64,000 nt of DNA, taken from the NCBI GenBank assembly GCA_018818125.1, contig JAHISQ010000174.1:1-64000 (forward strand), given 5' to 3'. Both the position numbers and the translations under genes were made by a program. The notes beneath the pieces were generated by a model. The model saw nothing but the letters and a program-made list of their open reading frames with translations. It had not been told where the DNA came from and made no database searches. The DNA is from Candidatus Rifleibacteriota bacterium (GTDB lineage Bacteria > Muiribacteriota > Ozemobacteria > Ozemobacterales > Ozemobacteraceae). Each line of letters starts with the position of its first letter. Positions within the stretch are counted from its first letter, which is position 1. Positions 21,120-40,633 of the stretch are shown here, one piece after another.

Positions 21120-24100
21120 ATGAAGCGTATAGAACCAAAATTTGAACCACTGGCGATTGTAGGCATGAGTTGCCTGTTCCCCAAAGCTCAAAGCGTTGAA
21201 GATTACTGGGCCAACATCAAAGAAAAGGTTGACGCAATAACCGAAGTGCCGCCCACACACTGGAAAGCCGAAGATTACTTTGACAGTAATAAAAAGCGCA
21301 CAGACCATGTGTACAATGCCACTGGCGGTTTTCTCGACCCGATCGATTTTACCCCAGGCGAATGGGGAATCGCGCCATCTGACCTCGATTCTATCGACAC
21401 ATCACAGCTGCTAAGCCTGGTTGTAGCACAGGGCGCTCTCAATGACGCCGGCTACGGCGCAACTCGCGAATTTAACCGTGATAACGTCAGCGTAATTCTT
21501 GGTCTGACTGGAACCCTTGAACTGGTTGTTCCGCTGGGTGCACGACTTGGTCACCCGATCTGGCGCCGGGCAATGCAGCACGCTGGCATTCCCGCCGATA
21601 TCACCGAAGAAGTTATCAATAGCATCGGCAAAGCCTACGTCGGCTGGCAGGAAACCTCGTTTCCAGGTCTCCTCGGCAATGTTGCCGCCGGCCGCATCGC
21701 CAACCGCCTCAATCTTGGCGGCACTAACTGCGTGGTAGACGCTGCGTGCGGAAGCTCACTGGGCGCCATCAATAACGCAGCTCTCGAACTCTGGACCGGT
21801 AAAACAGACATGGCGATTACCGGCGGAATCGATACTTTCAACGATATTTTCATGTATATGTGCTTCTGCAAGACGCCAGCGCTTTCACCGACCGGCCATG
21901 CGCGGCCCTTCAGTATCGACAATGACGGAACCATTCTTGGTGAAGGTATCGGCATGGTTGTGCTAAAACGTCTTTCAGATGCTGAACGCGATGGCGACCG
22001 CATCTACGCCTGCATTAACGCTGTTGGCACCTCAAGCGATGGCAAAGGCAAGGCCATATATGCCCCAAGTTCGGCTGGTCAGAAAAAAGCCCTGATCCGC
22101 GCCTACGATATGGCCGGAATTACTCCCCGCGACATCAGCCTGGTTGAAGCACACGGAACCGGAACCAACGCCGGTGACGAGGTCGAAACCACAGCACTCA
22201 AAGAAGTGTATGGAGATGCCGAAAACGGCCGACCATGGTGCGCGCTCGGCTCAGTTAAGTCTCAAATCGGTCATACCAAGGCAGCTGCCGGCTCAGCCGG
22301 TATTATTAAAGCGGCGCTCGCGCTCTATCATAAGGTTATTCCGCCGACAATCAAGATTTCGCAACCGGCAAAGGGTGTCTCTGGCGAAAACATTCCTTTC
22401 TATCTGCCCGACAAAATCAGGCCTTGGATAACTGACGATGCAAGGCCTCGCTATGCCGCGGTCAGCGCGTTGGGGTTTGGTGGCAGCAATTTTCATGTGG
22501 TCGTTTCTGAATATAAGGCCGAAAAGCCTGGCGACGACTGGAAGCAAAGCGTCGAACTGATAACCATATCCGGTAAAACCCATGGCGATGTCGAAAAACA
22601 CCTTTCAAGCCTGACCGCTTGCAAAAACGCGCAGCAGCTACGCAAATTTGCAGCAGAGTCGCGTCACAGCTTTGATGCTGATGAAAACTGCCGCCTGGCC
22701 TTTGTTGTCGAATCAACCAATGACATCGACAAGCTGGTCGCTGACATTAAAGGCAGTCTGGCCAATAAATCCGACTCTTTCACCTTACCAAACGGCGCAT
22801 ACTTTGCCACTGGCAAACAGAAGGCAGCGATTGGCGTTATTTTTCCCGGGCAGGGTGCGCAGTATCCTGGCATGAGCCTTGATCTGGTCTGCGGTAATAA
22901 TGAAGCATTCGCAACCTTTGTCGAAGCTGATCGCGAAATAGCAACTCTCGATGGGCTGGGCAACCATCTCGTTGATTATGTGTTTCCGCGTCCGACCTAT
23001 AATGCCGAGAATGACAAGGTCAATGACGAAAAGTTGCGTGCCACTGATATCGCACAGCCTGCCATCGGCGCAATTGCACTCGGACAATATCGCATGCTCG
23101 AAGGTTTTGGACTGCATGCTGACGGTTTTGCCGGCCACTCTTACGGAGAACTGGTCAGTCTCTGCGCAGCGAAAGTATTTGACAGCACAACCTTGGCCAG
23201 GCTTTCCCGCAAACGCGGTCAGCTCATGGCTCAGGGAAGTGGTGATCGTGGCGGCATGATCGCCGTTGCCGCCGATAGAACTGCAGTCAAAACAGTAATT
23301 GCCGACGAAAAGCTCGATCTCGTTGTCGCCAATCACAACTCACCTCAGCAGGTGGTTCTCTCTGGTAAAACCTCTGAAATAGAACGTTCCCGCGAAATTT
23401 TCAAGCAACGCAAGATGCGCGCAACTGTGCTCAACGTAGCCGGGGCTTTCCACAGTTCTTTTGTTGCGGATGCCGCCGAGCCTTTCCACGCTTTTCTTGC
23501 CGGCGAAAAAATGAATAAGCCGGCAGTGCCGGTTTATGCCAATACAACCGCCGCACCCTACCCTGCTGACATCGAAGGAATCAAAAAAATACTTGGCTTT
23601 CAGCTTGCCAACCAGGTGCGTTTCGTCGAAATCATCGAAAAAATGTATGCCGACGGCATAAGAACCTTTATCGAAGCCGGCCCTGGCGGTAAAATCACCG
23701 GCCTGATCAAAGCCATTCTCGAAGGCCGCAGTTGCAACATAATTGCTGTTGATTCTTCTGCCGGCAAACGCTCTGGGCTCACTGACCTTGCCAGAGTTCT
23801 GGCACAGCTGAGTGCTCTTGGACATCGACTGTTAATCAACCGCTGGCAGAACGGTGAAATCTGGCTGTCTCAACAGCCAGCTCCGGGCAAGCCTAAACTG
23901 ACTTTCCCGCTTTGTGGCGCCAATTACAAATCAGCTGCTCATAAAAAATTCCTTGAAGAACTTGCAAAACCTGCACCAGTTAAGCTGACCACCAGCAAAC
24001 CAGACGCTGCTACACCAAGTCTGGTAACACCAGCATCGATTCCGATGGCGACACCCGCTGTTGCGGCATCAGCAACAGCTTACCCTCAGACCCGGACAGG

Positions 24101-27100
24101 TAATATGAGCAACAATAACAACTATCCGCAAAATCCATCGTTTACAGCTCCGACAGCGTCTAACGACGCTCTCAGACTTTCGCGCGAAACACTTTCGGCC
24201 TTGCAGCAGTTGCAACAGCAGACTGCCGAACTACACCGCAAGTTTCTTGAAGGCCAGGAAACCGCACAAAAAACGATCATGGCATTAATCTCGGGTCAGC
24301 GTATGCCGGCCACGACATCATTTTCAGCTCCAGCACCGGTTTATACCCAGCCTGCCGAAGCACAAATCATGCAGCCGCGAGTTCAACAACAGCCTGCCGC
24401 CAGCTATAAGGCATCTGCCTCGGCACCGGTTGTTCAAACAAAGCCCGTTGTAATGCCAGCCGTGGTTGCAGCTCCGGCACCTGCTGACACCAGCCGCATT
24501 CAGGCGGTATTGCTCGAAGTTGTCAGCGAAAAAACCGGTTATCCGGTCGAAATGCTCAATCTCGACATGGACATGGAAGCAGACCTTGGCATTGACTCAA
24601 TCAAACGTGTAGAAATCATGTCGGCCATGCAAGAGCGTCTGCCCAATGCGCCCGTTGTGCAACCCGACCAACTTAGTAAACTTCGTACTCTGGCTCAGAT
24701 TCTGCAATATCTTGGCAGCGACTCCAGAGCATCTACCGCAGCAGCGCCAGCGAATATTGCTGCTCCAGCCGCTGCCAACAGCAGTCGCATTCAGTCGGTA
24801 TTACTTGAAGTCGTCAGTGAAAAAACCGGTTATCCGGTCGAAATGCTCAATCTCGACATGGACATGGAAGCAGACCTCGGCATTGACTCGATCAAACGTG
24901 TCGAAATCATGTCAGCAATGCAGGAACGCCTTCCCGACGCGCCAGTTGTGCAGCCTGATCAGCTCAGCAAACTTCGCACCCTGACTCAGATTCTGCAATA
25001 CCTTGGCAGCAATTCTGGAGCATCTGCGACTGGTTCTGCGCAAGCGAATGCAGCGGCGCCAGCCGGACAAGGCAACAACACAGCAAATATTAAGCCGGTT
25101 TTAATCGAGATTGTCAGCGAAAAGACTGGCTACCCAGCTGAGATGCTAAATCTCGACATGGACATGGAGGCAGACCTCGGCATAGACTCAATCAAACGTG
25201 TCGAAATCATGTCAGCGATGCAGGAACGCCTTCCCGACGCGCCAGTTGTGCAGCCCGATCAGCTTGGTAAGCTGCGCACTCTCTCTCAAATTCTCGACTA
25301 TCTCGGTTCTGGCAGCAGCAATGCGGCGGCGCAAACGGCAGTGGCAGCACCAACTGCGATGATACCAGGCATGAATGGCATTCTGCTCGAAGTTATCGCC
25401 GACAAAACTGGTTACCCAACAGAAATGCTCAACCCCGACATGGATATGGAAGCCGATCTTGGAATTGACTCAATCAAGCGGGTCGAAATTCTTTCTGCTT
25501 TCCAGGAACGGGTGCCCAGTGCGCCGGTCGTACAACCTGGCGACCTTGGCAAATTCAGAACTATTGCCCAGATTCTTGAATACCTAAATGCTGGCAATGC
25601 TACAACTCCTGCACCAGTAAAGACTCTACCTGCCACACAGCCGTCTGCACCGGCAAAAACCGAGTCGGTCCCCGCAGTAAAAGCCTCGGCAGAGCATTTT
25701 CCGATCAAAAGAACAGTATTAAAGGCATACGAACTTGACAGCACTCTGACCACACCGATTAAGGCGCTCAAAAAGGGTGACAGTCTGATTGTTGTCGATG
25801 ATGGTTTCGGACTGGCCGAAGCGGTCTGCGAACAATTTGCCGCCGCCGGCTTCAAGCCCTGCCGACTTAAACTCAAAGACGTGGTCAACGCACAGTTCCT
25901 CAACGATGCCAAAGGCTTCATACTGCTTGCGCCTTTGCCAGAAAAAGCTTCACATAACCTCTGGGAAAAAGCCTCTGAAGAATGGCTTAAAGACTGTTTT
26001 ATTGCCACCCAGAAAGTTGGCATGGCAATAAGAGCCAACGGCACTGGTCTGATTGCGACGGTTTCGCGCCTGGATGGCGCCTTTGGCCTTGAATCTCCAA
26101 CACGCACCATCGACCCGATTCAAGGCGGCCTCGCTGGACTAAGCAAGACCATTACTCATGAATGGCCCGAAATGAATGTTCGCGCAATCGACCTCGATTA
26201 TCGCTTTAAAGATGTGCAAGGCGCAGCCGAAAAGCTGGTAAAAGAATTGCTGCACGAAGGACCTGTTGAAACTGGGCTGACCCGTTCATGTCGATATGGT
26301 CTACGCGAAGTTGAAGAACAATTGGCAGAGCAGCCTGGCTCTCCGCTTCTGCATCAGGGCGAGGTTGTCGTGGTCACTGGCGGTGCGCGTGGTGTTACTG
26401 CCGAAACCGCGCTGGCAATGGCAGAAAAATACAAAACAAACATGGTTCTGGTTGGCCGCTCGCCCGAGCCTCGCCCAGAACCAGCCTGGCTTGCCGATGT
26501 AACCGCAGAACCGGCAATAAAACAAGCCATACTTGCGAACAGCGGCAAAAAGCTCACACCAAAAGAGCTCGAAGCAGAATTCAGATCGGCAATGGCAAAC
26601 CGCGAAGTGCTCAATAATCTAGAGCGCATTCGCAATGTCGGAGTCAAAGCATTCTACCACTCCGCTGACATTCGCAATGCCGAAGATATTGCGCGAGTAA
26701 TTGAACGCTCGCGCCAGGAAGTCGGGCCGATCTGTGCCCTGATACACGGCGCCGGAGTTCTACGCGACCGCCGAATCGAAGACAAAACCCGCGATCAGCT
26801 CGACGATGTCATCGACACCAAGATTACCGGCCTGCGCAACCTGCTGCTGGCAACTAACAAAGATGACCTTAAAGCAATTATTCTGTTTTCGTCGTTTTCC
26901 GGGCGCTTCGGGCGCACCGGACAAGTCGATTACTCCATGGCCAACGAAGTTCTGAACAAGGCAGCACACAAACTGCGTATTATCAAACCTGAATGCCGGG
27001 TACTTTCGTTTAACTGGGGGCCGTGGGACGGCGGTATGGTAACGCCGGCTCTGCGCAATGTCTTTCTGTCGGAAGGGATTGGCCTGATTCCGCTGTGCGA

Positions 27101-28067
27101 TGGCGCATGGCAACCGATAGTAGAACTAAGCCAGCGCAGTTCTAATGCTGTTGAAATCGGTATAATCGGCGAGATTACCAGCGTAGAGGCACCGCCCCCC
27201 GGAAAAAAGTTTGACAGGGCGTTTGACTTTGAGCTGAATCTCAAAGAAAACGCCTGGCTTAAAGACCATGTGATCAATGGCGACCCGGTGTTACCCATGG
27301 CGGTAGCGACCGAACTGCTGGCTCACGCTGCTACTCTACGCAACCCGGGCCTGCAATTTGTCGGCTATAATGATCTGCGTGTTCTCAAAGGCCTTGTTCT
27401 CAAAGGCGAAAGTCTACCGATAGTCATTTATGCCTCCCGCCCGCAGAAAACAGACGAAGGCTTCATGGTAACCTGCGAGATTAGAAGCAACCATGGCGAT
27501 CGTGAAATGGTAAACGTGCGCGCCGACGTTCTTCTTGCTGAACGCCTGCCGGCCAAAGTCCCGTCACCTGAACAGGTAGACGCACACCTGATTTATCCGG
27601 ACTCAATAAATGAGGCTTATCAGAACCATCTGTTTCATGGTGAATTTCTCAAGGCCTTGAACAGCATCGCCGGCTGGTCAGAAAGCGGTATGGTCGCAAG
27701 TTCATTTACTGCTGTCGACCCGACCGGCTGGTTTGCCCGACCGCCGATGTTACGTTGGTATACAGATCCGCTCGTTGTCGATGCAGCCTATCAGCTCATG
27801 ATTCTGTGGACAACTCAGGCCTGCGGCGCACCTTCCCTGCCTGGCTATGCCAAACGTTATCGCCAGTATGCCAGTGGCTTTGGTTCTTCACCGGTAACCA
27901 TTTCGGCCAATACCAGGCGCAGTGGCGCGATGATGGCCGCTGCAGACATAGACTTCATAGATGCCAAAGGCCAGCTGATAGCCAGACTTGAAGGCTATGA
28001 ATGTACTATGAACGAAAACCTGCGCAATGCTTTCAAACTTAGATCTGTCGCTGGAGCCGAAAAATGA
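21120..28067 (+). CDS. pfaA: PfaA-like polyunsaturated fatty acid synthase, KS-AT-ACP4-KR-DH
   Basis: 2315 residues; AGGAAGG precedes the ATG. Domains in order: ketosynthase (about 8-465; catalytic Cys210 in VDAACGSSLG, His motifs EAHGTGTN and GHTKAAAG), malonyl acyltransferase (about 565-880; FPGQGAQYPGM, Ser674 in GHSYGE), an Ala/Pro/Gln-rich linker with a short helix, four acyl carrier domains with pantetheine serines at 1160, 1257, 1357 and 1451 (each in LGIDSIKRVE), a ketoreductase (VTGGARGV near 1753; Tyr in VDYSMANEVLN) and a C-terminal hot-dog dehydratase (His in DHVINGDPVLP). This is the PfaA order of the iterative PUFA synthases of marine bacteria and myxobacteria. First gene of a six-gene operon; its stop overlaps the next start by ATGA. 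Confidence 0.93.
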   Translation: MKRIEPKFEPLAIVGMSCLFPKAQSVEDYWANIKEKVDAITEVPPTHWKAEDYFDSNKKRTDHVYNATGGFLDPIDFTPGEWGIAPSDLDSIDTSQLLSLVVAQGALNDAGYGATREFNRDNVSVILGLTGTLELVVPLGARLGHPIWRRAMQHAGIPADITEEVINSIGKAYVGWQETSFPGLLGNVAAGRIANRLNLGGTNCVVDAACGSSLGAINNAALELWTGKTDMAITGGIDTFNDIFMYMCFCKTPALSPTGHARPFSIDNDGTILGEGIGMVVLKRLSDAERDGDRIYACINAVGTSSDGKGKAIYAPSSAGQKKALIRAYDMAGITPRDISLVEAHGTGTNAGDEVETTALKEVYGDAENGRPWCALGSVKSQIGHTKAAAGSAGIIKAALALYHKVIPPTIKISQPAKGVSGENIPFYLPDKIRPWITDDARPRYAAVSALGFGGSNFHVVVSEYKAEKPGDDWKQSVELITISGKTHGDVEKHLSSLTACKNAQQLRKFAAESRHSFDADENCRLAFVVESTNDIDKLVADIKGSLANKSDSFTLPNGAYFATGKQKAAIGVIFPGQGAQYPGMSLDLVCGNNEAFATFVEADREIATLDGLGNHLVDYVFPRPTYNAENDKVNDEKLRATDIAQPAIGAIALGQYRMLEGFGLHADGFAGHSYGELVSLCAAKVFDSTTLARLSRKRGQLMAQGSGDRGGMIAVAADRTAVKTVIADEKLDLVVANHNSPQQVVLSGKTSEIERSREIFKQRKMRATVLNVAGAFHSSFVADAAEPFHAFLAGEKMNKPAVPVYANTTAAPYPADIEGIKKILGFQLANQVRFVEIIEKMYADGIRTFIEAGPGGKITGLIKAILEGRSCNIIAVDSSAGKRSGLTDLARVLAQLSALGHRLLINRWQNGEIWLSQQPAPGKPKLTFPLCGANYKSAAHKKFLEELAKPAPVKLTTSKPDAATPSLVTPASIPMATPAVAASATAYPQTRTGNMSNNNNYPQNPSFTAPTASNDALRLSRETLSALQQLQQQTAELHRKFLEGQETAQKTIMALISGQRMPATTSFSAPAPVYTQPAEAQIMQPRVQQQPAASYKASASAPVVQTKPVVMPAVVAAPAPADTSRIQAVLLEVVSEKTGYPVEMLNLDMDMEADLGIDSIKRVEIMSAMQERLPNAPVVQPDQLSKLRTLAQILQYLGSDSRASTAAAPANIAAPAAANSSRIQSVLLEVVSEKTGYPVEMLNLDMDMEADLGIDSIKRVEIMSAMQERLPDAPVVQPDQLSKLRTLTQILQYLGSNSGASATGSAQANAAAPAGQGNNTANIKPVLIEIVSEKTGYPAEMLNLDMDMEADLGIDSIKRVEIMSAMQERLPDAPVVQPDQLGKLRTLSQILDYLGSGSSNAAAQTAVAAPTAMIPGMNGILLEVIADKTGYPTEMLNPDMDMEADLGIDSIKRVEILSAFQERVPSAPVVQPGDLGKFRTIAQILEYLNAGNATTPAPVKTLPATQPSAPAKTESVPAVKASAEHFPIKRTVLKAYELDSTLTTPIKALKKGDSLIVVDDGFGLAEAVCEQFAAAGFKPCRLKLKDVVNAQFLNDAKGFILLAPLPEKASHNLWEKASEEWLKDCFIATQKVGMAIRANGTGLIATVSRLDGAFGLESPTRTIDPIQGGLAGLSKTITHEWPEMNVRAIDLDYRFKDVQGAAEKLVKELLHEGPVETGLTRSCRYGLREVEEQLAEQPGSPLLHQGEVVVVTGGARGVTAETALAMAEKYKTNMVLVGRSPEPRPEPAWLADVTAEPAIKQAILANSGKKLTPKELEAEFRSAMANREVLNNLERIRNVGVKAFYHSADIRNAEDIARVIERSRQEVGPICALIHGAGVLRDRRIEDKTRDQLDDVIDTKITGLRNLLLATNKDDLKAIILFSSFSGRFGRTGQVDYSMANEVLNKAAHKLRIIKPECRVLSFNWGPWDGGMVTPALRNVFLSEGIGLIPLCDGAWQPIVELSQRSSNAVEIGIIGEITSVEAPPPGKKFDRAFDFELNLKENAWLKDHVINGDPVLPMAVATELLAHAATLRNPGLQFVGYNDLRVLKGLVLKGESLPIVIYASRPQKTDEGFMVTCEIRSNHGDREMVNVRADVLLAERLPAKVPSPEQVDAHLIYPDSINEAYQNHLFHGEFLKALNSIAGWSESGMVASSFTAVDPTGWFARPPMLRWYTDPLVVDAAYQLMILWTTQACGAPSLPGYAKRYRQYASGFGSSPVTISANTRRSGAMMAAADIDFIDAKGQLIARLEGYECTMNENLRNAFKLRSVAGAEK
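24490..25590 (+). repeat. Four tandem acyl-carrier-domain repeats
   Basis: Four units spaced about 282-300 bases apart inside pfaA. Copies 1 and 2 share long runs of identical DNA around the GAAATGCTCAATCTCGACAT block; copy 3 is close, copy 4 more diverged at the third position and in the flanks. Linkers between units are Ala/Ser-rich. The pattern points to recent duplication or ongoing gene conversion of copies 1-3. Confidence 0.9.
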
Positions 28068-31000
28068 GCGACGCCGCCCACCAGAAAAAACCTTTTGCCA
28101 TAGCAATAACTGGCGTCGGCGGTATTTTCCCGGGTGCTGACAATCTTGATGAATTCTGGCAGATGATCGCAGAGTCGAGAAGCGCCTCTGAAGAAGTGCC
28201 AGACGGACGTTGGCCAGAACCTGCTCTTAAATATCATGATTCCAGACCGGGCACACCCGATAAGGTGCTGTCTTCGCGTAATTGTGCAATAAAAAAAATA
28301 CCGCAGAATTATAAACATTTGCAGATCAGCCATGAGCTCATAGAAAAACTCGATCCGCTGCTGGCCATAACCCTGCAGGCCGGACGCGATGCGTTCTTTG
28401 ATGCTGTTAACGCAAATCTCGACAAAAACCGGGTTCAGGTCATTCTGGCAAACATAGTTCTGCCAACAGATACTGCCAGCGCCATTACACGCGAACTAAA
28501 TCTTAGAGCACTAAAAAAACAGCTAGGCAAAAGCAGCTCTGTTGAAGAAGAATCAGAGATACACCCGTTGAACCGGCTGGCGGCAGAATTACCGGCCACT
28601 CTTCTGGCAACTGCGCTTGGTCTTGGCGGCGGCGGTTACACCCTTGATGCAGCCTGCGCTTCTTCGCTTTACGCGATTAAGTTGGCCTGCGAAGAGCTGA
28701 CAGCCGGGCGTGCCGATGCAGTGCTGACTGGTGGCGTGTCGCGACCTTCTTCGCAGTTCACGCAGATGGGCTTTTCGCAGCTGCATGCACTTTCTAAAAC
28801 CGGAGTCTGTAGACCTTTCGACAAGTCAGCGGATGGTCTTGTCGTCGGTGAAGGCGCCGGCATATTTCTGCTCAAGCGCCTTGAAGACGCACAAAAGTCT
28901 GGCGACAAGATTTACGCGGTAATCCGTGGTATCGGTCTTGCCAACGACGTTGGTGGCAGTCTGCTGGCGCCTGACTCAGAAGGCCAGATGCGCGCCATGA
29001 CCCAGGCATACCAACAGGCTGGCTGGCAACCACACGATGTTCAACTTATCGAGTGTCATGGCACTGGCACCCCAAAAGGTGATTCCATCGAGTTTTCAAG
29101 CCTTAAACAACTCTGGAAGGATGAAAAGGCATCGGTTGCCAAATGTGTTATCGGCTCAGTTAAGTCAAATGTCGGACACCTGCTCACCGGGGCCGGTGCT
29201 GCCGGGTTGATGAAGCTCCTGATGGCGCTTAAGAACAAAGTTCTCCCGCCCCAGGCCAATTTTTCACAGACCGACCCGACAATGGGCATCGAAGCCAGTC
29301 ATTTCGAAATTCTTCAGAAACCACGCCCATGGAACCCGACCGCGGCAGATCAGCCCCGACGCTGCGCTTTGAGCGCATTCGGGTTTGGCGGAATAGATGG
29401 CCATGTGTTGCTGGAAGAATACAGCGAAAGCTCTGTAGAAGCTCAAAAAGCCAGTCATAAAGAAGAAGCATCGGTTGAACCGCTGCCAGAAATCGCTATC
29501 GTCGCGATAGAAACCAGAGCAGGCACATTGCCCGATCTCAAAGCTTTTCAAAAAGCAGTTATTAATTGCGAACCGGCAATCAGGGATCTGCCTGAACATC
29601 GCCACCCATTTAACACCGGCGAAAAATGGCTCAAACAAGGCGCTTATATCGACGAAATCGCCATAACACCTGGCGAATTCAAAATCAGCCCTAAAGAAAT
29701 ACCAGAAATTCTACCACAGCAACTGCTTATGCTGCAGACTGCCGATAGAGCTTTGCGCTCGCTCAAATTTACCCGTGAAGAAACCCGAAACTGGGGCACC
29801 TTTATGGGCATCAATCTTGATTTTGCCAGTACTAATTTTGCCAGTCGCTGGGCAATTGAAAAAGATGCCCAGCTTGCCGATCTTGATGATTTAGATGTGC
29901 AGAAACTTGCTGATGCGATAACTCCTGCACTGAACAACCCAAGAACGGTTGGCGCACTCGGCGGCATTGTCGCCAGTCGCATTGCCCGCGAATACAACAT
30001 AGGCGGGCCATCGCACACTTTTGCGAGCGGCGAGAACTCTGGGCTTTCCGCTCTTGAAGCCGGCGTGCGCGCCCTGCAGCGCTACGAAATCTCGGCAGCA
30101 TTGGTCGGTGCCGTTGATCTGGCCGGCGATTTGCGCAACCTTAAAACCATTGATGCCCTCAGACCTTTCTCACGTAAAAACGGTTCAGTGCCCTTCGACG
30201 AAAGCGCCGACGGTGCATTCCCAGGCGAAGGCGCCGTAGCTCTTGTGCTGAAGCGCAAAGAAGATGCGCTGCGCGATGGAAATCGCATTTTTGCGATGGT
30301 AAAGGGCGTAGGACGTGCTTCTCTCACCTGCCCCGGTGATTCTGCAGCGGCAGTAGATGCTTACAGTCGTGCCATGCAATCTGCCTGGAAAGATTCAGGG
30401 CTGAACATCTCAAACATGGGACTTCTCGAAGCCAATGGCAGCGGCAATCCCGATGAAGACAAAATAGAAGCCACTGCGCTGGCAGCGACTCTACCGGCCA
30501 AAGATCAATCGCCACAAGATCGCTTTAAAAGCAACGATCAGCTCTGCGCTATCTCTGGCAGCAAAATGGTTATCGGTCATACCGGCTGCGCCGCCGGTCT
30601 ATTTGCTCTAGCCAAAGCTGCAGTGTGCATTTATCAGCAGATTCTGCCCAGTTATCCCGGCTTACAGAAACCAGTTGCAAAACTGCAACAACGCGAAGAC
30701 TTCTTTTTTACACCGGCCGAACCGCAATACTGGTTGCGCAACCGCATCCAGGGCCCAAGAACCGCTGGCGTAAGCAGTTTCAGCATAGACGGAAACTATT
30801 ACCACGTAGTTCTGCAAGCTTTCGAAAACGAAGAAAAGCTAACTGAAGAAGTTAAGCAACTCAATGAAAAGGCGCGAGTCTACCCGGCCGGCGAGCCTGA
30901 AGAGAATCTGTTTATTATTGGCGGCATCAATGCCTGTGATGTACGCGAAAGACTGGCAGCGCTTAGAAACATGTCTGAACGGCCAATCAAAGAGCTTGCC

Positions 31001-34000
31001 CGCGAATATTGGCAACACTACGCCCCCAGAGATGATGCAAAGTCCTTTGCGGCAATTGTCGCTGATTCAGGCGCAACTCTGCAGCGCCGAACCGAAATCG
31101 CGCTGAACCATCTTTACAACCATGAAAACAAACCGATGCCTGCAGGCCCCGAAATACAGGATCGTATTTTCTACAACCCTGCGCCACAAGCGCTTAATGG
31201 CAAGGTCGCGTTTGCCTTTCCGGGGTCGGGCAACCATTTCCTCGGCATGGGAACTGAACTCGGCCTGACCTGGCCCGAACACCTGCGTCGCCTGGATTCT
31301 CAGTATGATCTGCTGGCTGCTCAGTTTGCGCCGCGCCTGACGGTGCCATGGCGACTGAACTATGCACCAGGCTGGGAAGAAGACGCCATGCGGCAACTGA
31401 TCGCCGACCACAACTCACTGGTTTTCAGCCACGTTTCGTGCTGTGCCCTGGTCAGCGATGTGGTCAGAAGCTTTGCCATCGAACCCAATATAATCATGGG
31501 TTACAGCCTCGGCGAGACAGCCGGAAATTTTGCGACCCGCACCTGGCACGAACGTGACGAAATGGTGCGCCGCATGCGCAGCTCAAACCTTTTTACCAGC
31601 GAGTTGATCGGCCACTATAATTCAGCGCGCAAACACTGGGGGCTTGCAGACAGTGAGCCAGTTGAATGGTATCTCGGGTTAATTAGCAGCCCGGCCGAAA
31701 ATGTCGAAAAACTTCTGGCGGATTTCCCTCAGACTTACGTTCTTATCGAAAACACACCCGAAGAGTGCGTGATAGGCGGCAACCGTGCGCAGGTTGAGAA
31801 ACTGGCCAAAGCGATTGGTAAAGCTTTCTTTCCGCTCGAAGGCGTTTCCTCGGTGCATTGCGAAGCCGCTCTGCCCTCTGCCGAAGCCTATCGCGCTCTA
31901 CATCTCTATGACTGTCATCCACCTGAGGGCATGACATTCATCAGCAGCGGAAAGGGCACTGTTTTTACGCCGCAGCGCGAAGTTTCTGCCGATTCGATCA
32001 AGGCTCAATGTATTGGCCGCATCAACTTTATCAGGTGCGTAGAAACAGCTTATGCCGAAGGTGTTCGCGTATTCCTAGAAATCGGACCGCGCGCCTCGAT
32101 GTCGCGCATGATCAGCAACATACTCGGTCAGCGCCCGCACTTTACCAGATCAGCACTGCTGTATGGCCAAAGCCAAACCAGCGCTATGCTGCGATTTGTC
32201 GGAAATGTCTCTGCCGAAGGCATAAAGGTTGATCTTACACCGCTTTATCGCCCTGCCGCAGAGCCTGCAGCCATTGCCACCAGTAGAACAGCTCCGATTA
32301 TCGTTAAGGTTGCTCACCAGATTTCTGCCGATAAACTGCGACAACTCAACAGCTCAACGGAGCCCGCCACAATTCATGTCTCACAGGTTTCAGTAGCCAG
32401 CAGTGCAAAACCAGTCGAAAGAGTCATGTCTGCCGATAGTTCGGCTTTGTCGGCCTCGTCATTCTCAACGACAACACCGGCTCAGCCCCTGCCTCCCTCC
32501 CATACCCCGCCCCACACTCTTCCCCTCACGCAGATGCAGCAACCGATATCAATCAACCAGCAGACACCAGTCTCAGATGGTTCAAACCAGCTGCTCAACG
32601 AATGGATCGCGGCACAACATGAAACTGCCCGTGCACACGAAGTATTCCTGCGTCTCAGCGACCAGCTGAGTCAGGCACAAACCAGACTGCTTGAACAACA
32701 ACTCCAGATTATGCAGGGCTTGCCGGTTGACGTTGTTAACACCGCCTGGTTCGAACAGCAACTGCCTCAGTCAGCCCAAACCTTGGCAGCACAGAGTTCA
32801 GCAGCGCCTGCCAGAGCGCAGCGCATGCCATCACCATACACTGGCCCTCTGTTCATCGACTGGCCAGGTTCAATGGAATTTGCCGTCGGCAAAATCGGCA
32901 AAGTTCTCGGCGAATATTTTGCGCCGATAGACAACCACCCGACCCGTGTGCGCCTACCCGACATACCTCTCAACTTTGTCGACCGCATAGTTATGGTCGA
33001 TGGCGAAAAGGGTTCGCTCGGTAAAGGCCGCGTCGTTACCCAGCACGATGTCTACCCTGACACCTGGTATCTCGACAACTACTGCATGCCAACCGGACTC
33101 GCTGTTGAAGCTGGCCAGGCCGATCTATTCCTGTCTGCCTGGCTTGGAATCGACTTTAAGACGCATGGCGTTGCCAAATACCGTCTACTAGACGCTGTTG
33201 TTACCATCCATGGCCCCCTGCCCCGCCCCGGCGACACAATTAATTACGACATTCGCATCGATCGCTTTATTAGACAGGCAAATACTTACCTGTTCTTCTT
33301 CGAGTTCGACGGCAGCATCAATGATAAACATCTGATCACCATGCGCAACGGTTGCGCTGGCTTCTTTACTGATCGCCAGCTCGCCGATGGGAAGGGAATA
33401 GTGCTGACCGACGACGACACCCGGCCAGATCCCCGCCCCAACCTGCCTGGGCGTCAGAATCTTCCCGCCATGCGTATCGAAGCCTTCAACGACTCCGCCC
33501 TCGCAGCCCTGCGCCAAGGCGATCTCGCCAGCGCGTTTGGCAGCGAATTTGCCGGCCTGGGCATCACGCCGCAGACCATTCCTTCAGGCAAAATGGCAAT
33601 GATCGACCGCATTACCGAAATCGACCCGAACGGCGGACGTTTCGGTCTTGGCCGCATCAAGGCCGAAATAGATATTCCCGAAGATGCCTGGTTTTTAACC
33701 CAGCATTTCTGCGACGACCAGGTCATGCCCGGCACTCTGATGTATGAATCCTGCATGCAGTCTCTGCGCGTGTTCCTGCTACGCATGGGTTGGATCGCTG
33801 ACGCATCGACCTCAGCTTTCGAGCCGGTTCTTGAAGTAAAAAGCCTGTTGCGCTGCCGAGGTCAGGTAACACCGGGCGTCAAAAAAGCGCTCTACGACAT
33901 CTCGATCAAAGAACTCGGCTACAACCCTGAACCTTATGCAATTGCCGATGCTCTCATGTTCGCCGATGGCAACCGCATTGTCCAGGTGCTTGATATGAGC

Positions 34001-35248
34001 ATTCGCTTGACCGGCGTAACCAACGCCGACATTGAGGCACTGTGGCACCGTCGAAGCCAGCATTCGGCATCGGCGGCACCCATACAATTCATCAACAACG
34101 AAATACTGCCGGCTGTCTTTACCGGCCAGCAGATTCTCGAATATGCGATCGGCAAACCATCTCTGTGCTTCGGCGAAAAGTTCGCCATATTCGACGAACA
34201 GAAATTCCTCGCCCGCCTGCCCAACCCGCCCTATCTATTTGTAGACCGTATCACTGCTGTAAATGCCGAATCGCTGAAAATAAAAACCGGCGGTACAGTG
34301 CAGGGGCAATTCGATATCAGTCCAGATGCCTGGTTCTTCAAGGCTAATCGCCAGACCAGCATCCCATTCGCAATTCTGCTGGAGTTCCCGCTGCAGGTCT
34401 GTGGCTGGTATTCGTGCTATATGGGCTCGGCCTTTGCTAACGATAAAGAGCTGCACTACCGGAACCTTGACGGCTCGGCCACTCTTTACGAAGACATCAA
34501 CGTCAACAGCGGCACTCTAACGGCGACTGTCGTTTCGACAAGGGCTGCCAACTCCGCCGGCATGCTGATTCAGTCTTTTGATATGCTGGTAACGCAGGGA
34601 GGACGCAAAATTTACGAAGGCCAGACCACCTTCGGCTTCTTCGCGAAAGAAGCGCTGGCCAACCAGGTCGGCTTTCGTGGCATAGAGCTTTACGAGCCTT
34701 CCGCCGACGAAAAACTTCGCCACATTGACTTTCCTTTGCCGCTGGCGACACCGCTTAATCCGCAGGATAACCGCGTCGATGCGATGAACGGCCTCAGCCT
34801 GCCGGGCAAATGCTATCTGATGCTCGATCGCATCGACTGTTTCGTGCCCGATGGTGGCCCAGCCGGACTTGGCTTTATCAGAGGAATCAAACAGGTTGAT
34901 ACTTCAGAATGGTTTTTCAAGGCACACTTCTATCAGGACCCGGTCATTCCAGGTTCGCTCGGCCTCGAATCATTCATTCAGCTGATGAAAGTAGCTGCCA
35001 TTCATCGTTGGGGGGGCGAGCTTGCCGGCCGCAACTGCCATTTCGAGCCGATCGCGCTGAACCATAAACACACATGGTCTTATCGCGGTCAGGTAATCCC
35101 TCAGGATAAACTCGTCACTGTCGATGCCTGCATTAACAGAATCGATGACGCTGATCATCTGATGGTTGCCGAAGGTTTTCTCAAGGTAGATGGGCGTATA
35201 ATCTACAGCATGAAAGATTTTGCGCTCAGAGTTGTAATTGATGCCTAA
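28064..35248 (+). CDS. pfaC: PfaC-like PUFA synthase, KS-CLF-AT-(hot-dog)4
   Basis: 2394 residues. Domains: active ketosynthase (1-450; Cys198 in LDAACASSL, ECHGTGTPKGD, GHLLTGAGAAG); chain-length-factor-like second KS (about 470-900) where the Cys position is Glu657 (FASGENSGLSAL) and the first His motif has become EANGSGNP; an acyltransferase (about 1040-1390; FAFPGSGNHFLGMG, Ser1148 in GYSLGE); a Gln-rich linker; then from about 1590 four FabA-like hot-dog domains. Only the second (His1881, QHFCDDQVMPGTL) and fourth (His2288, KAHFYQDPVIPGSL) keep the active His; the first and third have Asn there. So two dehydratase units, each a pseudo-domain plus an active one. The AT is usually on a separate PfaB in marine bacteria. 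No enoyl reductase or lipid acyltransferase domain is present. Confidence 0.92.
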   Translation: MSDAAHQKKPFAIAITGVGGIFPGADNLDEFWQMIAESRSASEEVPDGRWPEPALKYHDSRPGTPDKVLSSRNCAIKKIPQNYKHLQISHELIEKLDPLLAITLQAGRDAFFDAVNANLDKNRVQVILANIVLPTDTASAITRELNLRALKKQLGKSSSVEEESEIHPLNRLAAELPATLLATALGLGGGGYTLDAACASSLYAIKLACEELTAGRADAVLTGGVSRPSSQFTQMGFSQLHALSKTGVCRPFDKSADGLVVGEGAGIFLLKRLEDAQKSGDKIYAVIRGIGLANDVGGSLLAPDSEGQMRAMTQAYQQAGWQPHDVQLIECHGTGTPKGDSIEFSSLKQLWKDEKASVAKCVIGSVKSNVGHLLTGAGAAGLMKLLMALKNKVLPPQANFSQTDPTMGIEASHFEILQKPRPWNPTAADQPRRCALSAFGFGGIDGHVLLEEYSESSVEAQKASHKEEASVEPLPEIAIVAIETRAGTLPDLKAFQKAVINCEPAIRDLPEHRHPFNTGEKWLKQGAYIDEIAITPGEFKISPKEIPEILPQQLLMLQTADRALRSLKFTREETRNWGTFMGINLDFASTNFASRWAIEKDAQLADLDDLDVQKLADAITPALNNPRTVGALGGIVASRIAREYNIGGPSHTFASGENSGLSALEAGVRALQRYEISAALVGAVDLAGDLRNLKTIDALRPFSRKNGSVPFDESADGAFPGEGAVALVLKRKEDALRDGNRIFAMVKGVGRASLTCPGDSAAAVDAYSRAMQSAWKDSGLNISNMGLLEANGSGNPDEDKIEATALAATLPAKDQSPQDRFKSNDQLCAISGSKMVIGHTGCAAGLFALAKAAVCIYQQILPSYPGLQKPVAKLQQREDFFFTPAEPQYWLRNRIQGPRTAGVSSFSIDGNYYHVVLQAFENEEKLTEEVKQLNEKARVYPAGEPEENLFIIGGINACDVRERLAALRNMSERPIKELAREYWQHYAPRDDAKSFAAIVADSGATLQRRTEIALNHLYNHENKPMPAGPEIQDRIFYNPAPQALNGKVAFAFPGSGNHFLGMGTELGLTWPEHLRRLDSQYDLLAAQFAPRLTVPWRLNYAPGWEEDAMRQLIADHNSLVFSHVSCCALVSDVVRSFAIEPNIIMGYSLGETAGNFATRTWHERDEMVRRMRSSNLFTSELIGHYNSARKHWGLADSEPVEWYLGLISSPAENVEKLLADFPQTYVLIENTPEECVIGGNRAQVEKLAKAIGKAFFPLEGVSSVHCEAALPSAEAYRALHLYDCHPPEGMTFISSGKGTVFTPQREVSADSIKAQCIGRINFIRCVETAYAEGVRVFLEIGPRASMSRMISNILGQRPHFTRSALLYGQSQTSAMLRFVGNVSAEGIKVDLTPLYRPAAEPAAIATSRTAPIIVKVAHQISADKLRQLNSSTEPATIHVSQVSVASSAKPVERVMSADSSALSASSFSTTTPAQPLPPSHTPPHTLPLTQMQQPISINQQTPVSDGSNQLLNEWIAAQHETARAHEVFLRLSDQLSQAQTRLLEQQLQIMQGLPVDVVNTAWFEQQLPQSAQTLAAQSSAAPARAQRMPSPYTGPLFIDWPGSMEFAVGKIGKVLGEYFAPIDNHPTRVRLPDIPLNFVDRIVMVDGEKGSLGKGRVVTQHDVYPDTWYLDNYCMPTGLAVEAGQADLFLSAWLGIDFKTHGVAKYRLLDAVVTIHGPLPRPGDTINYDIRIDRFIRQANTYLFFFEFDGSINDKHLITMRNGCAGFFTDRQLADGKGIVLTDDDTRPDPRPNLPGRQNLPAMRIEAFNDSALAALRQGDLASAFGSEFAGLGITPQTIPSGKMAMIDRITEIDPNGGRFGLGRIKAEIDIPEDAWFLTQHFCDDQVMPGTLMYESCMQSLRVFLLRMGWIADASTSAFEPVLEVKSLLRCRGQVTPGVKKALYDISIKELGYNPEPYAIADALMFADGNRIVQVLDMSIRLTGVTNADIEALWHRRSQHSASAAPIQFINNEILPAVFTGQQILEYAIGKPSLCFGEKFAIFDEQKFLARLPNPPYLFVDRITAVNAESLKIKTGGTVQGQFDISPDAWFFKANRQTSIPFAILLEFPLQVCGWYSCYMGSAFANDKELHYRNLDGSATLYEDINVNSGTLTATVVSTRAANSAGMLIQSFDMLVTQGGRKIYEGQTTFGFFAKEALANQVGFRGIELYEPSADEKLRHIDFPLPLATPLNPQDNRVDAMNGLSLPGKCYLMLDRIDCFVPDGGPAGLGFIRGIKQVDTSEWFFKAHFYQDPVIPGSLGLESFIQLMKVAAIHRWGGELAGRNCHFEPIALNHKHTWSYRGQVIPQDKLVTVDACINRIDDADHLMVAEGFLKVDGRIIYSMKDFALRVVIDA

Positions 35249-35281
35249 GTTTGTTATCCTTCCCAAACCACAACGAATATT

Positions 35282-36322
35282 ATGAAATTTACCCGAGTTT
35301 TCCTTGAAGCCATCGGCTATGAGCTGCCACAACACATTGTTACTTCGGCATGGATCGAAGAACAACTGGCTCCTCTGTACCGCAAACTGTATCTGCAGCC
35401 GGGTCAGCTCGAAGCATTGACCGGAATCCGCGAGCGCCGCTGGTGGGGTAACGCGCATGTTAACGCTGTCGAAGCAGCTAAAGCCGCAAAAAAAGCACTC
35501 GCCGAAACTGACATACCCGTTGAAGACATTGGAGCAGTGGTTTATGGCGGCGTTTGTCGCGACAACTACGAACCGGCTACTGCCTGCCATGTTGCCGCTG
35601 AACTTAAAGTTCGCGCTGAAACTGCTATCTGCGACGTCTCTAATGCCTGTCTTGGAGCCTTAAGCGGCATTATTGATATCGCCAACCGCATTGAGCTTGG
35701 ACAAATAAAGGCCGGCATTGTTGTTGCCTGCGAGACCGCCCGTGAAATTACCCAGATCATGATTCAGCGCATGCTCGAAGAAGGCAGCATGGAATTCTTT
35801 AAGCAGGCTCTTGCCACCATGACCGGCGGTTCCGGTGCCTGCGGCATAGTGCTCAGTGATGGTTCATACGGCCATAAGGGGCCGCGCCTCGCCGGCGGCG
35901 TCACTCTCGGCGCACCAGAGCACCACCGGATGTGCAGATGGGGTGCCGACCAGCGTATACCTGCCCGCGCTCCACAGATGATGGAAACCAACGCAATCGG
36001 CATGCTCAGGCATGGCGGCGAGCTGGTTCGCAAAGTCGGCGATGCATTTTTTCGCGAACTGAACTGGACAAATGACCAGCTCGACAAAATAATTTCGCAT
36101 CAGGTTGCCAGCGCCAATCGTGATGCCATACTTAATAATCTCGGTCTTACTCTCGAGAAAGATTTCTCGACTTTTCAGTTTCTTGGCAACATGGGAACGG
36201 TCTCACTACCGGTTACTGCAGCAATAGCCATGGAACGCGGTGTTCTTGAAAAAAACCAGAAAGTCGGCTTTATCGGCATCGGGAGCGGCCTTAACAGCAT
36301 GATGCTCGGATGGGAATGGTAA
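35282..36322 (+). CDS. oleA: OleA: head-to-head acyl-condensing thiolase
   Basis: 346 residues, typical length for OleA. OleA performs a non-decarboxylative Claisen condensation of two fatty acyl-CoAs to a 2-alkyl-3-ketoalkanoate. The thiolase catalytic set is present: Cys123 in VSNACLGALSG, His273 in ISHQVASANRD and Asn303 in FLGNMGT. The EPATACHVAAELKV segment carries the glutamate that in Xanthomonas OleA reaches the partner subunit's active site as a base, which separates OleA from ordinary KAS III. It lies 33 bases after pfaC and one base before oleB, so the acyl chains made by the PUFA synthase are its likely substrates. KAS III (FabH) is the alternative, but the ole neighbours argue against it. 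Confidence 0.92.
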   Translation: MKFTRVFLEAIGYELPQHIVTSAWIEEQLAPLYRKLYLQPGQLEALTGIRERRWWGNAHVNAVEAAKAAKKALAETDIPVEDIGAVVYGGVCRDNYEPATACHVAAELKVRAETAICDVSNACLGALSGIIDIANRIELGQIKAGIVVACETAREITQIMIQRMLEEGSMEFFKQALATMTGGSGACGIVLSDGSYGHKGPRLAGGVTLGAPEHHRMCRWGADQRIPARAPQMMETNAIGMLRHGGELVRKVGDAFFRELNWTNDQLDKIISHQVASANRDAILNNLGLTLEKDFSTFQFLGNMGTVSLPVTAAIAMERGVLEKNQKVGFIGIGSGLNSMMLGWEW

Positions 36323-36323
36323 C

Positions 36324-37217
36324 ATGACATTCAACCACGCAGAATACAAAGATATCTACCCCTTTGCCCCTCACTATTTGACCCACAAATCTGGCCTAAA
36401 GCAGCACTTTGTCGATGAAGGCTGCGGAGAACCGCTGGTAATGATACACGGCAACCCCAGTTGGTCGTTTTTATATCGAGACATGATCAAAGCCTTTTCT
36501 GGGGACTTTCGCGCCATAGCGCCAGATCACATCGGCTGTGGCCTTTCCGACAAACCCGGCCTCGACTCTTTTGGCTATACGCTGCGCGAACACATTGATA
36601 ATCTCGAAGCACTCATCGAAAGTCTGCAACTGCAGCAACCAATTAATCTCGTCGTTCACGACTGGGGCGGAGCCATAGGCATGGGCTATGCCACCCGCCA
36701 CCCAGACAAAGTTAAACGCCTGATAATGCTTAATACCGGCGCATTCAGACTGCCTGATAACTGTCCGTTTCCGTGGCCGGTCTGGCTGTTCAGAAACACC
36801 GACCTTGGTGCCTGCCTGAACCAGACTTTTAACGCCTTTTCATTTATTGCCAGCCACACCTGTTCACTCAAAGGCATGAGTCGCAAGGTCAGACATGGCT
36901 TCAGAGCGCCCTATGATAAGCCGGCAAATCGCATCGCCACCACCAGATTTGTTCAGGATATTCCGCTGACTCCTGACGATCCGTCATATTCTGAACTGGT
37001 AAGCATCGAAGAGAATCTGCATAAACTCGCCGATAAGCCGGCGCTAATCTGCTTCGGGCGCCTGGATTTTGTTTTCACCCGTCATTTTTACAACGAATGG
37101 AAAAGGCATTTTCCGAAAGCGGCAGCACACAGCTTTCACGCTGGACACTACGTTCTTGAAGACGCAGGCGCAGAAATTTTCGCTCTGATGCGCAAGTTGT
37201 TTGACGCCCAAGCCTGA
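36324..37217 (+). CDS. oleB: OleB: beta-lactone decarboxylase (alpha/beta hydrolase)
   Basis: 297 residues of the haloalkane-dehalogenase-like alpha/beta hydrolase fold. OleB opens a cis-beta-lactone through an Asp nucleophile and loses carbon dioxide to leave a cis-alkene. Visible: HGNPSWSFLYRDMI (oxyanion and Asn of the HGNPTSS-type motif), nucleophile Asp113 in VVHDWGGAIGMG, and a late catalytic His in FHAGHYVLEDAG. On sequence alone it could be called a haloalkane dehalogenase; position between oleA and oleC fixes the assignment. The ATG is one base after the oleA stop. OleB is not fused to OleC, unlike in actinobacteria. Confidence 0.9.
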   Translation: MTFNHAEYKDIYPFAPHYLTHKSGLKQHFVDEGCGEPLVMIHGNPSWSFLYRDMIKAFSGDFRAIAPDHIGCGLSDKPGLDSFGYTLREHIDNLEALIESLQLQQPINLVVHDWGGAIGMGYATRHPDKVKRLIMLNTGAFRLPDNCPFPWPVWLFRNTDLGACLNQTFNAFSFIASHTCSLKGMSRKVRHGFRAPYDKPANRIATTRFVQDIPLTPDDPSYSELVSIEENLHKLADKPALICFGRLDFVFTRHFYNEWKRHFPKAAAHSFHAGHYVLEDAGAEIFALMRKLFDAQA

Positions 37218-37233
37218 CTACAGGAGACAAAAT

Positions 37234-38904
37234 ATGGCTGAACAGCAGACTCAGGGCTATAACATGGCCACCTTTATCCGCCAGAAAGCCGCAGAGACGC
37301 CTCATAAAAGGGCTGTAGTAGTTCCAAGCAGCAGAAACCAATACGGCCGTGTTGCCTATACTCAGATTACCTTCAAACAGCTTGAAGAAGATTCCAACCG
37401 TTTTGCCCGCGGCCTCAACCGTATCGGCATCGGACGCGGCACCAAGACAGTGCTGATGATAACACCAGGTATTGAATTTTTTATCGCTTTTATGGCGCTA
37501 TGCAAGGTTGGCGCAACTCTGGTGATGATCGACCCCGGCATTGGTATGAAAAGCCTTAAAACCTGTATCAATGAAACAAAGCCCGAAGCTTTTATCGGTG
37601 TCAGTAAAGCCCATGCCGCCCGCGTTCTTATGCGCTGGGCACCAGAGAGCATTAAAATTCGTGTAACCCTCGGACCCAGGCTTTTCTGGGGTGGCCATAA
37701 GTTTTATGATCTGCTCGGTAACGATGCCTCGCCCTACGAAATCCAGATGCTGCCCCGCGACGAAATGGCCGCACTGATGTTTACGTCTGGCAGCACCGGT
37801 ATTGCCAAGGGCGCGGTGTATACTCATGGCATCCTTTGCAGCCAGGTGCAGTTCATCCAGGAAACCTATGGCTTCACGCCTGAAGATGTTGATCTCGCGA
37901 CATTTCCGCTTTTTGCACTGTTCGACGTTTGCCTCGGCATGACCGCAATAATTCCAGATATGGACGCCACCAAACCGGCGAAGGCCGATCCGCGAAAGCT
38001 TATCGAAGCTATCAACGACAACGGCGCCACCTCGATGTTTGGTTCGCCGGCGCTGATTGATACGCTCAGTCGCTGGGGTGTCGAAAATTCGGTGACGCTT
38101 GGCTCGCTGCGGCTCGTTTTGTCATGTGGCGCACCCGCCCGTAACGATATTCTGCAGCGCTTTCACCGCATGTTGCCCGAGAACTGCGAAATTTTTACGC
38201 CATACGGCGCCACGGAAGCGCTACCGGTCAGTTCCATAGGCAGTCGCATGATTCTTGGTGAAACTGCAGCGATAACCGATAACGGTGGCGGCACCTGCGT
38301 TGGTTATCCGAACCCGCACGTGCAGGTAAAAATAATTAAAATCAGCGACGAGCCAATTACGCAGTGGAACGATGACCTTGTCGTCACAGTCGGTGAAATT
38401 GGTGAAATCGTTGCCAAAGGCCCGATCGTAACCCGAGAATATTATTGTCGCCCCGAAAACACGATGCTCGCAAAAATTGCCGAGGGCGACGAAGTCTGGC
38501 ATCGTATGGGCGACCTCGGGCGCATCGACGAGCAGGGTCGCATCTGGTTCTGCGGCCGCAAATCGCACCGTGTCGTCGGCGATAATCAGGTCTGGTTCTC
38601 GGTTCCATGTGAGCGCGTGTTCAATCAGCATTCACATGTATTCAGAACTGCGCTTTCCGGAATTGGCAAAAAGGGTCACCAGGTTCCAGTAATCTGTGTC
38701 GAGCTCGAAAAGAATGTTGCTGAAGTTAACACCGAAAAACTGATAACCGAACTCGTTCAGATTGGCAGCAAACACCCTCACACGGCCGCAATAAAGCACT
38801 TTCTGATTCATCCTGGCTTCCCTGTAGATATTCGCCATAACGCCAAGATTACCCGCGAAGCTCTATCTGAATGGGCCACTGAGAAGCTCAAAGGCCGTAT
38901 TTAA
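37234..38904 (+). CDS. oleC: OleC: ATP-dependent beta-lactone synthetase
   Basis: 556 residues, ANL (AMP-forming acyl-CoA synthetase) superfamily. OleC adenylates a beta-hydroxy acid and closes it to a cis-beta-lactone. The P-loop-like motif is MFTSGSTGIAKGAVYTHG (near residue 190), followed by TPYGATEALPVSSIGS (A5 motif), MGDLGRIDEQGRIWFCGR (A7/A8) and HNAKITREAL with the catalytic-loop lysine. Start ATG 37234 is chosen because CAGGAG lies just before it; a TTG further upstream overlaps oleB and is unlikely. 16 bases after oleB and 13 before oleD. Without context it would be annotated as a fatty-acid--CoA ligase. Confidence 0.9.
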   Translation: MAEQQTQGYNMATFIRQKAAETPHKRAVVVPSSRNQYGRVAYTQITFKQLEEDSNRFARGLNRIGIGRGTKTVLMITPGIEFFIAFMALCKVGATLVMIDPGIGMKSLKTCINETKPEAFIGVSKAHAARVLMRWAPESIKIRVTLGPRLFWGGHKFYDLLGNDASPYEIQMLPRDEMAALMFTSGSTGIAKGAVYTHGILCSQVQFIQETYGFTPEDVDLATFPLFALFDVCLGMTAIIPDMDATKPAKADPRKLIEAINDNGATSMFGSPALIDTLSRWGVENSVTLGSLRLVLSCGAPARNDILQRFHRMLPENCEIFTPYGATEALPVSSIGSRMILGETAAITDNGGGTCVGYPNPHVQVKIIKISDEPITQWNDDLVVTVGEIGEIVAKGPIVTREYYCRPENTMLAKIAEGDEVWHRMGDLGRIDEQGRIWFCGRKSHRVVGDNQVWFSVPCERVFNQHSHVFRTALSGIGKKGHQVPVICVELEKNVAEVNTEKLITELVQIGSKHPHTAAIKHFLIHPGFPVDIRHNAKITREALSEWATEKLKGRI

Positions 38905-38917
38905 CAGGAGATGAGTG

Positions 38918-39940
38918 ATGAATAACCAGATCAAAGAACTGGTGACTGGCCAGATCGCGCTGGTAACAGGCGGGAGCGGCTTTCTTGGCCGTGCAATTGT
39001 TAAACAGCTCCTCGACAAAGGACTCAATGTGCGCATTCTTTGCCGCAGCGACTACCCCGATCTTATAGAAGCCGGCTGCACAATTTTTCGTGGCGAAGTT
39101 TCTGACGCTGAGCTCGTCGACAAGGCTGTTCAGGGCTGCGACCTGATTTTTCATACCGCAGCCAAAGCCGGTGTTGAAGAGCCTTATTCAGAATACGAGC
39201 GCATCAATTATCAGGGCACCCTCAACATTCTCAATGCCTGCCGCAAAAATCAGGTGAGCCGACTTATCTACACCAGCTCGCCGAGCGTAGTTTTTTCGCA
39301 TGGCGACGTTGAGGGCCGTGACGAGAGCATGCCCTACCCTGACCATTACGATGCATACTACCCAAAAACCAAGGGTATGGCCGAAAAAGAAGTGCTCAAA
39401 AGCAACTCCGACAAACTTGCCACCGTCGCACTCAGGCCACACCTGATCTGGGGGCCTGGTGACAACCATCTTGGGCCACGACTGGTTTCGCGCGCACGCG
39501 CCGGACGTCTCAAATTCGTTGGCGACGGTAAAAATAAAATTGACACTGTTTATATCGACAATGCTGCTGATGCCCATATCCTCGCGGCCGAGCGTCTGTT
39601 TATCGGAAGTCAGGTCGCCGGAAAAGCATATTTCATCACCAACAGCGACCCACGCCCGATTTCCGAGATAACCAATCTGATTATCGGTGCTGCAGGCTGT
39701 GCACCGGTCACCGCTACAATTTCACCCAGAATTGCCTGGTTTATCGGTTATACCTGCGAAGTATTGTACAAGACGCTCAATATCAAAGGCGAACCGCCGA
39801 TCACACGATGGGTCGCCGGCGAACTGTCGACTGCGCACTGGTTCAATATCTCCGCAGCCCGTAACGATCTAGGCTACGAACCTCGTGTCAGCATAGAAGA
39901 AGGCATCAAAAGACTCCGCGAGTATTACAAAGAACAATAG
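38918..39940 (+). CDS. oleD: OleD: NADPH-dependent 2-alkyl-3-ketoalkanoate reductase
   Basis: 340 residues, extended short-chain dehydrogenase/reductase resembling 3-beta-hydroxysteroid dehydrogenases. OleD reduces the beta-keto acid from OleA to the beta-hydroxy acid used by OleC. The cofactor loop is VTGGSGFLGRAIVKQLL, with RILCRSD after strand 2; the catalytic serines lie in YTSSPSVVFSHG and the YxxxK motif is YYPKTKGMAE. Start ATG 38918 is seven bases after AGGAG; a GTG just before it is possible. Last gene of the operon; no clear terminator follows before the SYLF gene. Confidence 0.9.
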   Translation: MNNQIKELVTGQIALVTGGSGFLGRAIVKQLLDKGLNVRILCRSDYPDLIEAGCTIFRGEVSDAELVDKAVQGCDLIFHTAAKAGVEEPYSEYERINYQGTLNILNACRKNQVSRLIYTSSPSVVFSHGDVEGRDESMPYPDHYDAYYPKTKGMAEKEVLKSNSDKLATVALRPHLIWGPGDNHLGPRLVSRARAGRLKFVGDGKNKIDTVYIDNAADAHILAAERLFIGSQVAGKAYFITNSDPRPISEITNLIIGAAGCAPVTATISPRIAWFIGYTCEVLYKTLNIKGEPPITRWVAGELSTAHWFNISAARNDLGYEPRVSIEEGIKRLREYYKEQ

Positions 39941-40084
39941 TCTAAAACATTGTCTCAGATGTATTTGACTAGCTGTTTATGACCATTTACTTTAGATGTA
40001 TTCAGCGATATGGTACTGTATCAAATACTGTGCTGAAGGCTCGGTATTAACTTAAGACTTAGATAAAACCCGGTGGAGGTCTTT

Positions 40085-40633
40085 GTGAAAAAATTCAGTA
40101 TTTTGTTGAGTTTGGCTTTTTTCTTCTGTTGTTTTGCTGATACTGCTTCGGCAGGCTTGTTCAATAACCGCCACCGCCGCAGCGGCGAAGAAAATGCGCA
40201 ACTGTTGATAAAAAGCATGAAAGATAAAGATCCCGGCATTCAGAAAGTGTTTGATAAAGCTGTTGCCTGGGCTGTCTTTCCGAAAATTAGCAAGGCTGGT
40301 ATCGGTATCGGCGGCGCTGGCGGTAACGGGCGAGTTTACCGCAAAGGCACCTTCATCGGAACTACTACCATGTCTCAGATTTCTATTGGGTTTCAGCTCG
40401 GCGGGCAGATTTACGGCGAAGTCATCTTTTTTCAGGACGATTTTACTCTCGATAAATTCAAAAATGGTAAATTTGAGCTCGGCGCCAACATTTCAGCGGT
40501 AGTTTTTGATGTCGGTGCAGCAGAAACCGCAGGCTTTAAAGACGGCACCATGGTCTTTGTCATACCTAGTGCCGGACTGATGTATGAAGCCACCCTCAGC
40601 GGCCAGAAATTCACCTTCAAAGCTAAAAAATAG
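40085..40633 (+). CDS. Exported SYLF-domain (YSC84-like) lipid-binding protein
   Basis: 182 residues. GTG 40085 is taken as start because GGAGG (40074-40079 region) is correctly spaced; the upstream in-frame GTG lies within that site. A signal peptide (KKFSILLSLAFFFCCFADTA) is followed by a SYLF domain over nearly the whole protein: DKAVAWAVFPKISKAGIG, then IGGAGGNGRVYR, IGFQLGGQIYGEVIFF and FELGANISAVVFDVGAA. SYLF domains bind phosphoinositide-like or other lipids in eukaryotes; bacterial members are mostly exported and uncharacterised. It follows the ole operon on the same strand by about 140 bases, so it may be a separate transcript. Confidence 0.85.
   Translation: MKKFSILLSLAFFFCCFADTASAGLFNNRHRRSGEENAQLLIKSMKDKDPGIQKVFDKAVAWAVFPKISKAGIGIGGAGGNGRVYRKGTFIGTTTMSQISIGFQLGGQIYGEVIFFQDDFTLDKFKNGKFELGANISAVVFDVGAAETAGFKDGTMVFVIPSAGLMYEATLSGQKFTFKAKK

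Follow-up and report, generated by a model that had tools for sequence, protein, structure and literature searches.

A pfa-ole gene row in Candidatus Riflebacteria, a member of a known and widespread kind of cluster predicted to direct polyene hydrocarbon synthesis

The window (the whole stretch of DNA that was analysed, 64,000 nucleotides of a Candidatus Riflebacteria genome) contains a row of six pfa and ole genes on the + strand at positions 21120-39940, listed in Table 1. The earlier note had reported the six genes, their order, the single strand and inter-gene gaps of -4, 33, 1, 16 and 13 bases, all of which are confirmed to the base by the open reading frames and profile matches; the gaps are those obtained with the ATG starts of oleC at 37234 and oleD at 38918, and the reading frame limits also allow starts at 37201 and 38915, respectively.

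Table 1. Genes of the pfa-ole row, with positions in the window.
Gene	Position	Strand	Domains or basis of assignment
pfaA	21120..28067	+	KS-MAT-ACPx4-KR-DH (PKS type)
pfaBC fusion	28064..35248	+	KS-CLF-AT and two FabA-type DH regions (four FabA Pfam stretches)
oleA, head-to-head condensing thiolase	35282..36322	+	NF006720; alignment to X. campestris OleA; motifs
oleB, beta-lactone decarboxylase	36324..37217	+	haloalkane-dehalogenase-like family; HDWGG nucleophile and GH motif
oleC, beta-lactone synthetase (AMP-binding)	37234..38904	+	profile matches; ATG start 37234
oleD, 2-alkyl-3-oxoalkanoate reductase	38918..39940	+	NF042422; GGSGFLG and YxxxK; ATG start 38918

Catalytic motifs of the row are intact. 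PfaA matches TIGR02813 with 1704 bits (cut-off 1010) and has the KS-MAT-tandem ACP-KR arrangement, with the KS C/H/H residues, the MAT motif GHSYG, four LGIDSI ACP motifs and the KR motif YSMAN all present. The second gene had been described as pfaC-like, and its Pfa identity stands; it is more precisely a pfaBC fusion, a single open reading frame of 2394 aa with the organization KS-CLF-AT(PfaB-like)-DH2, in which the KS motifs are DAACASS and HGTGT, the CLF is without Cys (FASGENSG), the AT motif is GYSLG, and the PfaB model matches residues 1045-1355 weakly (80.6 bits). OleA matches NF006720 with 426 bits (cut-off 285) and aligns to the X. campestris OleA 3row (E=7e-47); according to the alignment and motifs, the catalytic Cys, Glu, His and Asn of that enzyme are conserved in the window protein, the first two as Cys123 and Glu97. 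OleB is an alpha/beta hydrolase of the haloalkane-dehalogenase-like group. OleC scores 710 bits against NF006754 (cut-off 478), and 625 and 616 bits against the olefin beta-lactone synthetase models, which falls short of the strict cut-offs (850 and 900); OleD scores 407 bits against NF042422, under its cut-off of 580. A complete oleABCD set thus adjoins the pfa genes on the same strand.

The six genes are presumed to be co-transcribed; promoter and terminator scans of the row gave signal no greater than in shuffled sequences, neither supporting nor opposing this. The flanking XdhC (19909-20865) and SYLF lipoprotein (40073-40633) genes were considered as operon members and left out, since neither has a match scoring over 60 bits among related loci L034-L149. 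Farther to the right, a PAS histidine kinase gene overlaps that of a FIST-domain protein on the - strand (40812-43503), and at 46052-48581 the gene of an ATP-grasp protein overlaps that of a PLP-dependent amino-acid decarboxylase-like protein; the two may form a small biosynthetic pair.

The row itself has neither pfaD (enoyl reductase) nor pfaE (phosphopantetheinyl transferase, PPTase), so that the description of the pathway as fused in one operon holds for six of its eight genes and fails for these two. We considered whether PfaD is missing from the genome and rejected this: the two genes overlap as a pair on a separate contig (C84:3280-5686), and the PfaD matches TIGR02814 with 602 bits. 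With these, the pathway is complete in the window genome, though not within the row. That pfaD and pfaE are unlinked in the window genus is a point against reading the row as a polyene-making Pfa-Ole cluster. Their linkage varies within the family: they lie about 60 kb from the row on the same contig in one related genome (G002), and in another member of the family all eight genes form one cluster in the order D-E-A-BC-oleABCD. We therefore treat pfaD/pfaE linkage as not defining for Pfa-Ole clusters.

G002 has the six-gene row complete; in a second genome (G004) the row continues to the limit of the retrieved sequence, and in two others (G001 and G003) only contig ends interrupt it. The pfaBC-ole junction is also present in eight further genomes. 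In five genomes of other genera of the family the ole genes and pfaBC are on different contigs, so the linkage is not obligatory, which also counts against that reading. Beyond this family, the Riflebacteria family f3 has a distant pfa set; in one genome (G032) this set, as pfaD-pfaA-pfaBC, is divergent from and adjoins oleABCD, a separate linkage of the two pathways. Three more families (f4, f5 and f7) have oleABCD wholly or partly, with no PfaBC match. We also note that a genome of the window genus, G003, encodes a second, very distant OleA-like protein, which forms a long branch beside X. campestris OleA.

The layout recurs well outside the Riflebacteria. Our survey of named genomes took the 80 closest PfaBC loci. 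Flanking sequence suffices for a judgement in 72 of them, and in 57 of these oleA lies directly downstream of PfaBC (53 within 500 bases and four more within 2.5 kb), making the arrangement far commoner than the earlier note had supposed. By the record labels, some of which are doubtful, these 57 loci span eight phyla or more: Thermodesulfobacteriota, Planctomycetota, Pseudomonadota, Elusimicrobiota, Myxococcota, Verrucomicrobiota, Sumerlaeota and Riflebacteria. Because the identical order recurs in sister genomes and in many phyla, the six-gene arrangement is not due to chance. In several Geobacteraceae pfaD is just upstream of pfaA, and a PPTase gene follows oleD. Three of the Pfa-Ole clusters are in metagenome-assembled genomes titled Klebsiella pneumoniae, Akkermansia muciniphila and Bordetella parapertussis, which look like mislabelled environmental MAGs.

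The two pathways are also inherited together. Among 146 genomes of the Geobacter class (Desulfuromonadia), Pfa-type OleA is found in 96 and PfaBC in 98; PfaBC is present in every one of the 96 OleA genomes and occurs without OleA in only two (Fisher p about 1e-36, which is only indicative because the genomes are related). The OleA and PfaBC genes share a contig and strand in 88 pairs, and 73 of these pairs are within 500 bases. Among 369 Gammaproteobacteria, four have an OleA that is 56-57% identical to the window protein over the first two thirds, with overall identity lowered to 46-48% by an insertion, and all four have PfaBC; five others have an OleA at 30-36% identity, none with a PfaBC match. 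Each of the four Pfa-linked proteins has 399 aa and carries about 53 inserted residues, placed after residue ~224 in window OleA numbering. This co-inheritance, like the gene content, intact motifs and conserved layout of the row, is directly observed.

These data bear on what the Pfa synthase is mainly for. It could chiefly make PUFA for membrane phospholipids, with OleABCD as a side branch that takes up a shorter intermediate; in Shewanella, likewise, a single Pfa set yields EPA as well as C31:9 (PMC6463001). We regard this as unlikely for the window organism, given that the six genes form one row and that Pfa-type OleA never occurs without PfaBC in the sampled Desulfuromonadia, while just two PfaBC genomes are without OleA; both observations point to a dedicated path.

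Two OleA trees were built, of 87 and 94 sequences, none of them from Shewanella or Photobacterium. A supported branch (99) separates all Pfa-cluster OleAs of the window kind, including those of the window's Riflebacteria family, from 19 other OleAs, among them those of the Pfa-less Riflebacteria families, family f3 and X. campestris; outside the Riflebacteria and Gammaproteobacteria samples the OleAs were chosen for their proximity to PfaBC, a bias toward this result that the class surveys partly offset. The OleA tree and a tree of PfaBC DH regions both group the window cluster with Geobacter-type clusters, and they match in part elsewhere (e.g. Sumerlaeota is beside Riflebacteria in both). 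The clade also bears on the reading that the two gene sets are neighbours only, OleA being supplied with acyl chains by ordinary FAS II while the Pfa synthase makes an unrelated lipid. The presence of oleABCD with no PfaBC match in other Riflebacteria families indicates that Ole can work without Pfa, but the OleAs of those families are only ~37-44% identical to that of the window and fall outside the Pfa-associated clade, and the co-occurrence of Pfa-type OleA with PfaBC is near-perfect; we consider this reading highly improbable.

Six near-invariant columns separate the two OleA groups, Y88, C102, C150, G182, A313 and R319 in window OleA numbering. At G182 and A313, ordinary OleAs have larger residues, mostly Leu or Ile. 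Aligned by hand, G182 corresponds to Leu203 of the tagged X. campestris protein, a residue that we take to line the acyl channel; none of the papers searched for channel-lining residues of OleA names them. We suggest tentatively, with the odds somewhat against it, that the Pfa-partner OleAs are a distinct signature clade in which G182 and A313 may open the acyl channel for polyenes, such that the OleA sequence by itself might tell the pathway type.

The proposal that the Pfa-type synthase feeds OleA for polyene hydrocarbon production fits all of the evidence, including the co-occurrence, the OleA clade, and the production of C31:9 by a Geobacter with the same row, and from the genes we consider it very probable that the window organism makes a long-chain polyene in this way. 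PfaA and PfaBC, together with PfaD and PfaE from the C84 pair, would assemble, on the tandem ACPs, an acyl chain containing several skipped cis double bonds, and OleA would condense two such acyl-ACP or acyl-CoA chains head to head. OleD would then reduce the beta-keto acid, OleC would close the beta-lactone, and OleB would decarboxylate it to the polyene. Two 16:4 chains would give hentriacontanonaene (C31:9), and this or a near relative is the most likely product; the PfaBC DH region is only ~51% identical to those of the Geobacter relatives, so the chain length may differ, which counts against this assignment. Both chain length and physiological role are here predicted from the genes.

The earlier note had regarded the layout as unusual, which does not hold: a tandem cluster is already published (PMC4882568), ole linkage has been called frequent (PMC3098273), and the arrangement is widespread in our survey. 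The analysis extends the known row to Riflebacteria and finds it common rather than exceptional. Modestly new are its occurrence in Riflebacteria, a row that in the window genus has lost pfaD-pfaE, linkage that varies within a single family, figures for OleA/PfaBC co-occurrence, and the Pfa-associated OleA clade with its six signature residues. A practical rule from the survey is that an OleA of this clade accompanies a Pfa synthase, and it predicts polyene hydrocarbon in uncultured lineages.

Among known systems, the stand-alone oleABCD sets of Xanthomonas and other Riflebacteria families have the same four enzymes and catalytic residues as the window, but have no PfaBC match in the sampled genomes, and their OleAs are 30-44% identical and outside the clade. 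Shewanella and Photobacterium have the same two pathways meeting at OleA, which joins them in vivo (Allemann et al. 2019, PMC6463001), and a C31:9 product, with the operons adjacent in P. profundum SS9; they differ in having separate pfaB and pfaC, two operons that are together or apart depending on the host, and EPA as a further product (PMC6463001). The closest likeness is to Geobacter bemidjiensis, a C31:9 producer in which the genes pfaD, pfaA, pfaB, pfaC, oleA, oleB, oleC, oleD and pfaE stand in tandem (Yoshida et al. 2016, PMC4882568), and to similar Type I-like clusters, ole genes being often linked to such Pfa-type clusters (Shulse & Allen 2011, PMC3098273). These share with the window the order pfaA-pfaBC-oleA-oleB-oleC-oleD on one strand, the fused pfaBC, and an OleA clade common to the Geobacteraceae relatives; the differences are that the window row is without pfaD/pfaE (a separate pair on another contig) and that its OleA is ~55% and its PfaBC DH region ~51% identical. 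As the row is already published in Geobacter, that of the window belongs to a known kind and its layout is not novel; judged by sequence, it is a Riflebacteria copy of the Pfa-Ole cluster, like the 'Type I' of Shulse & Allen with fused pfaBC and linked ole genes.
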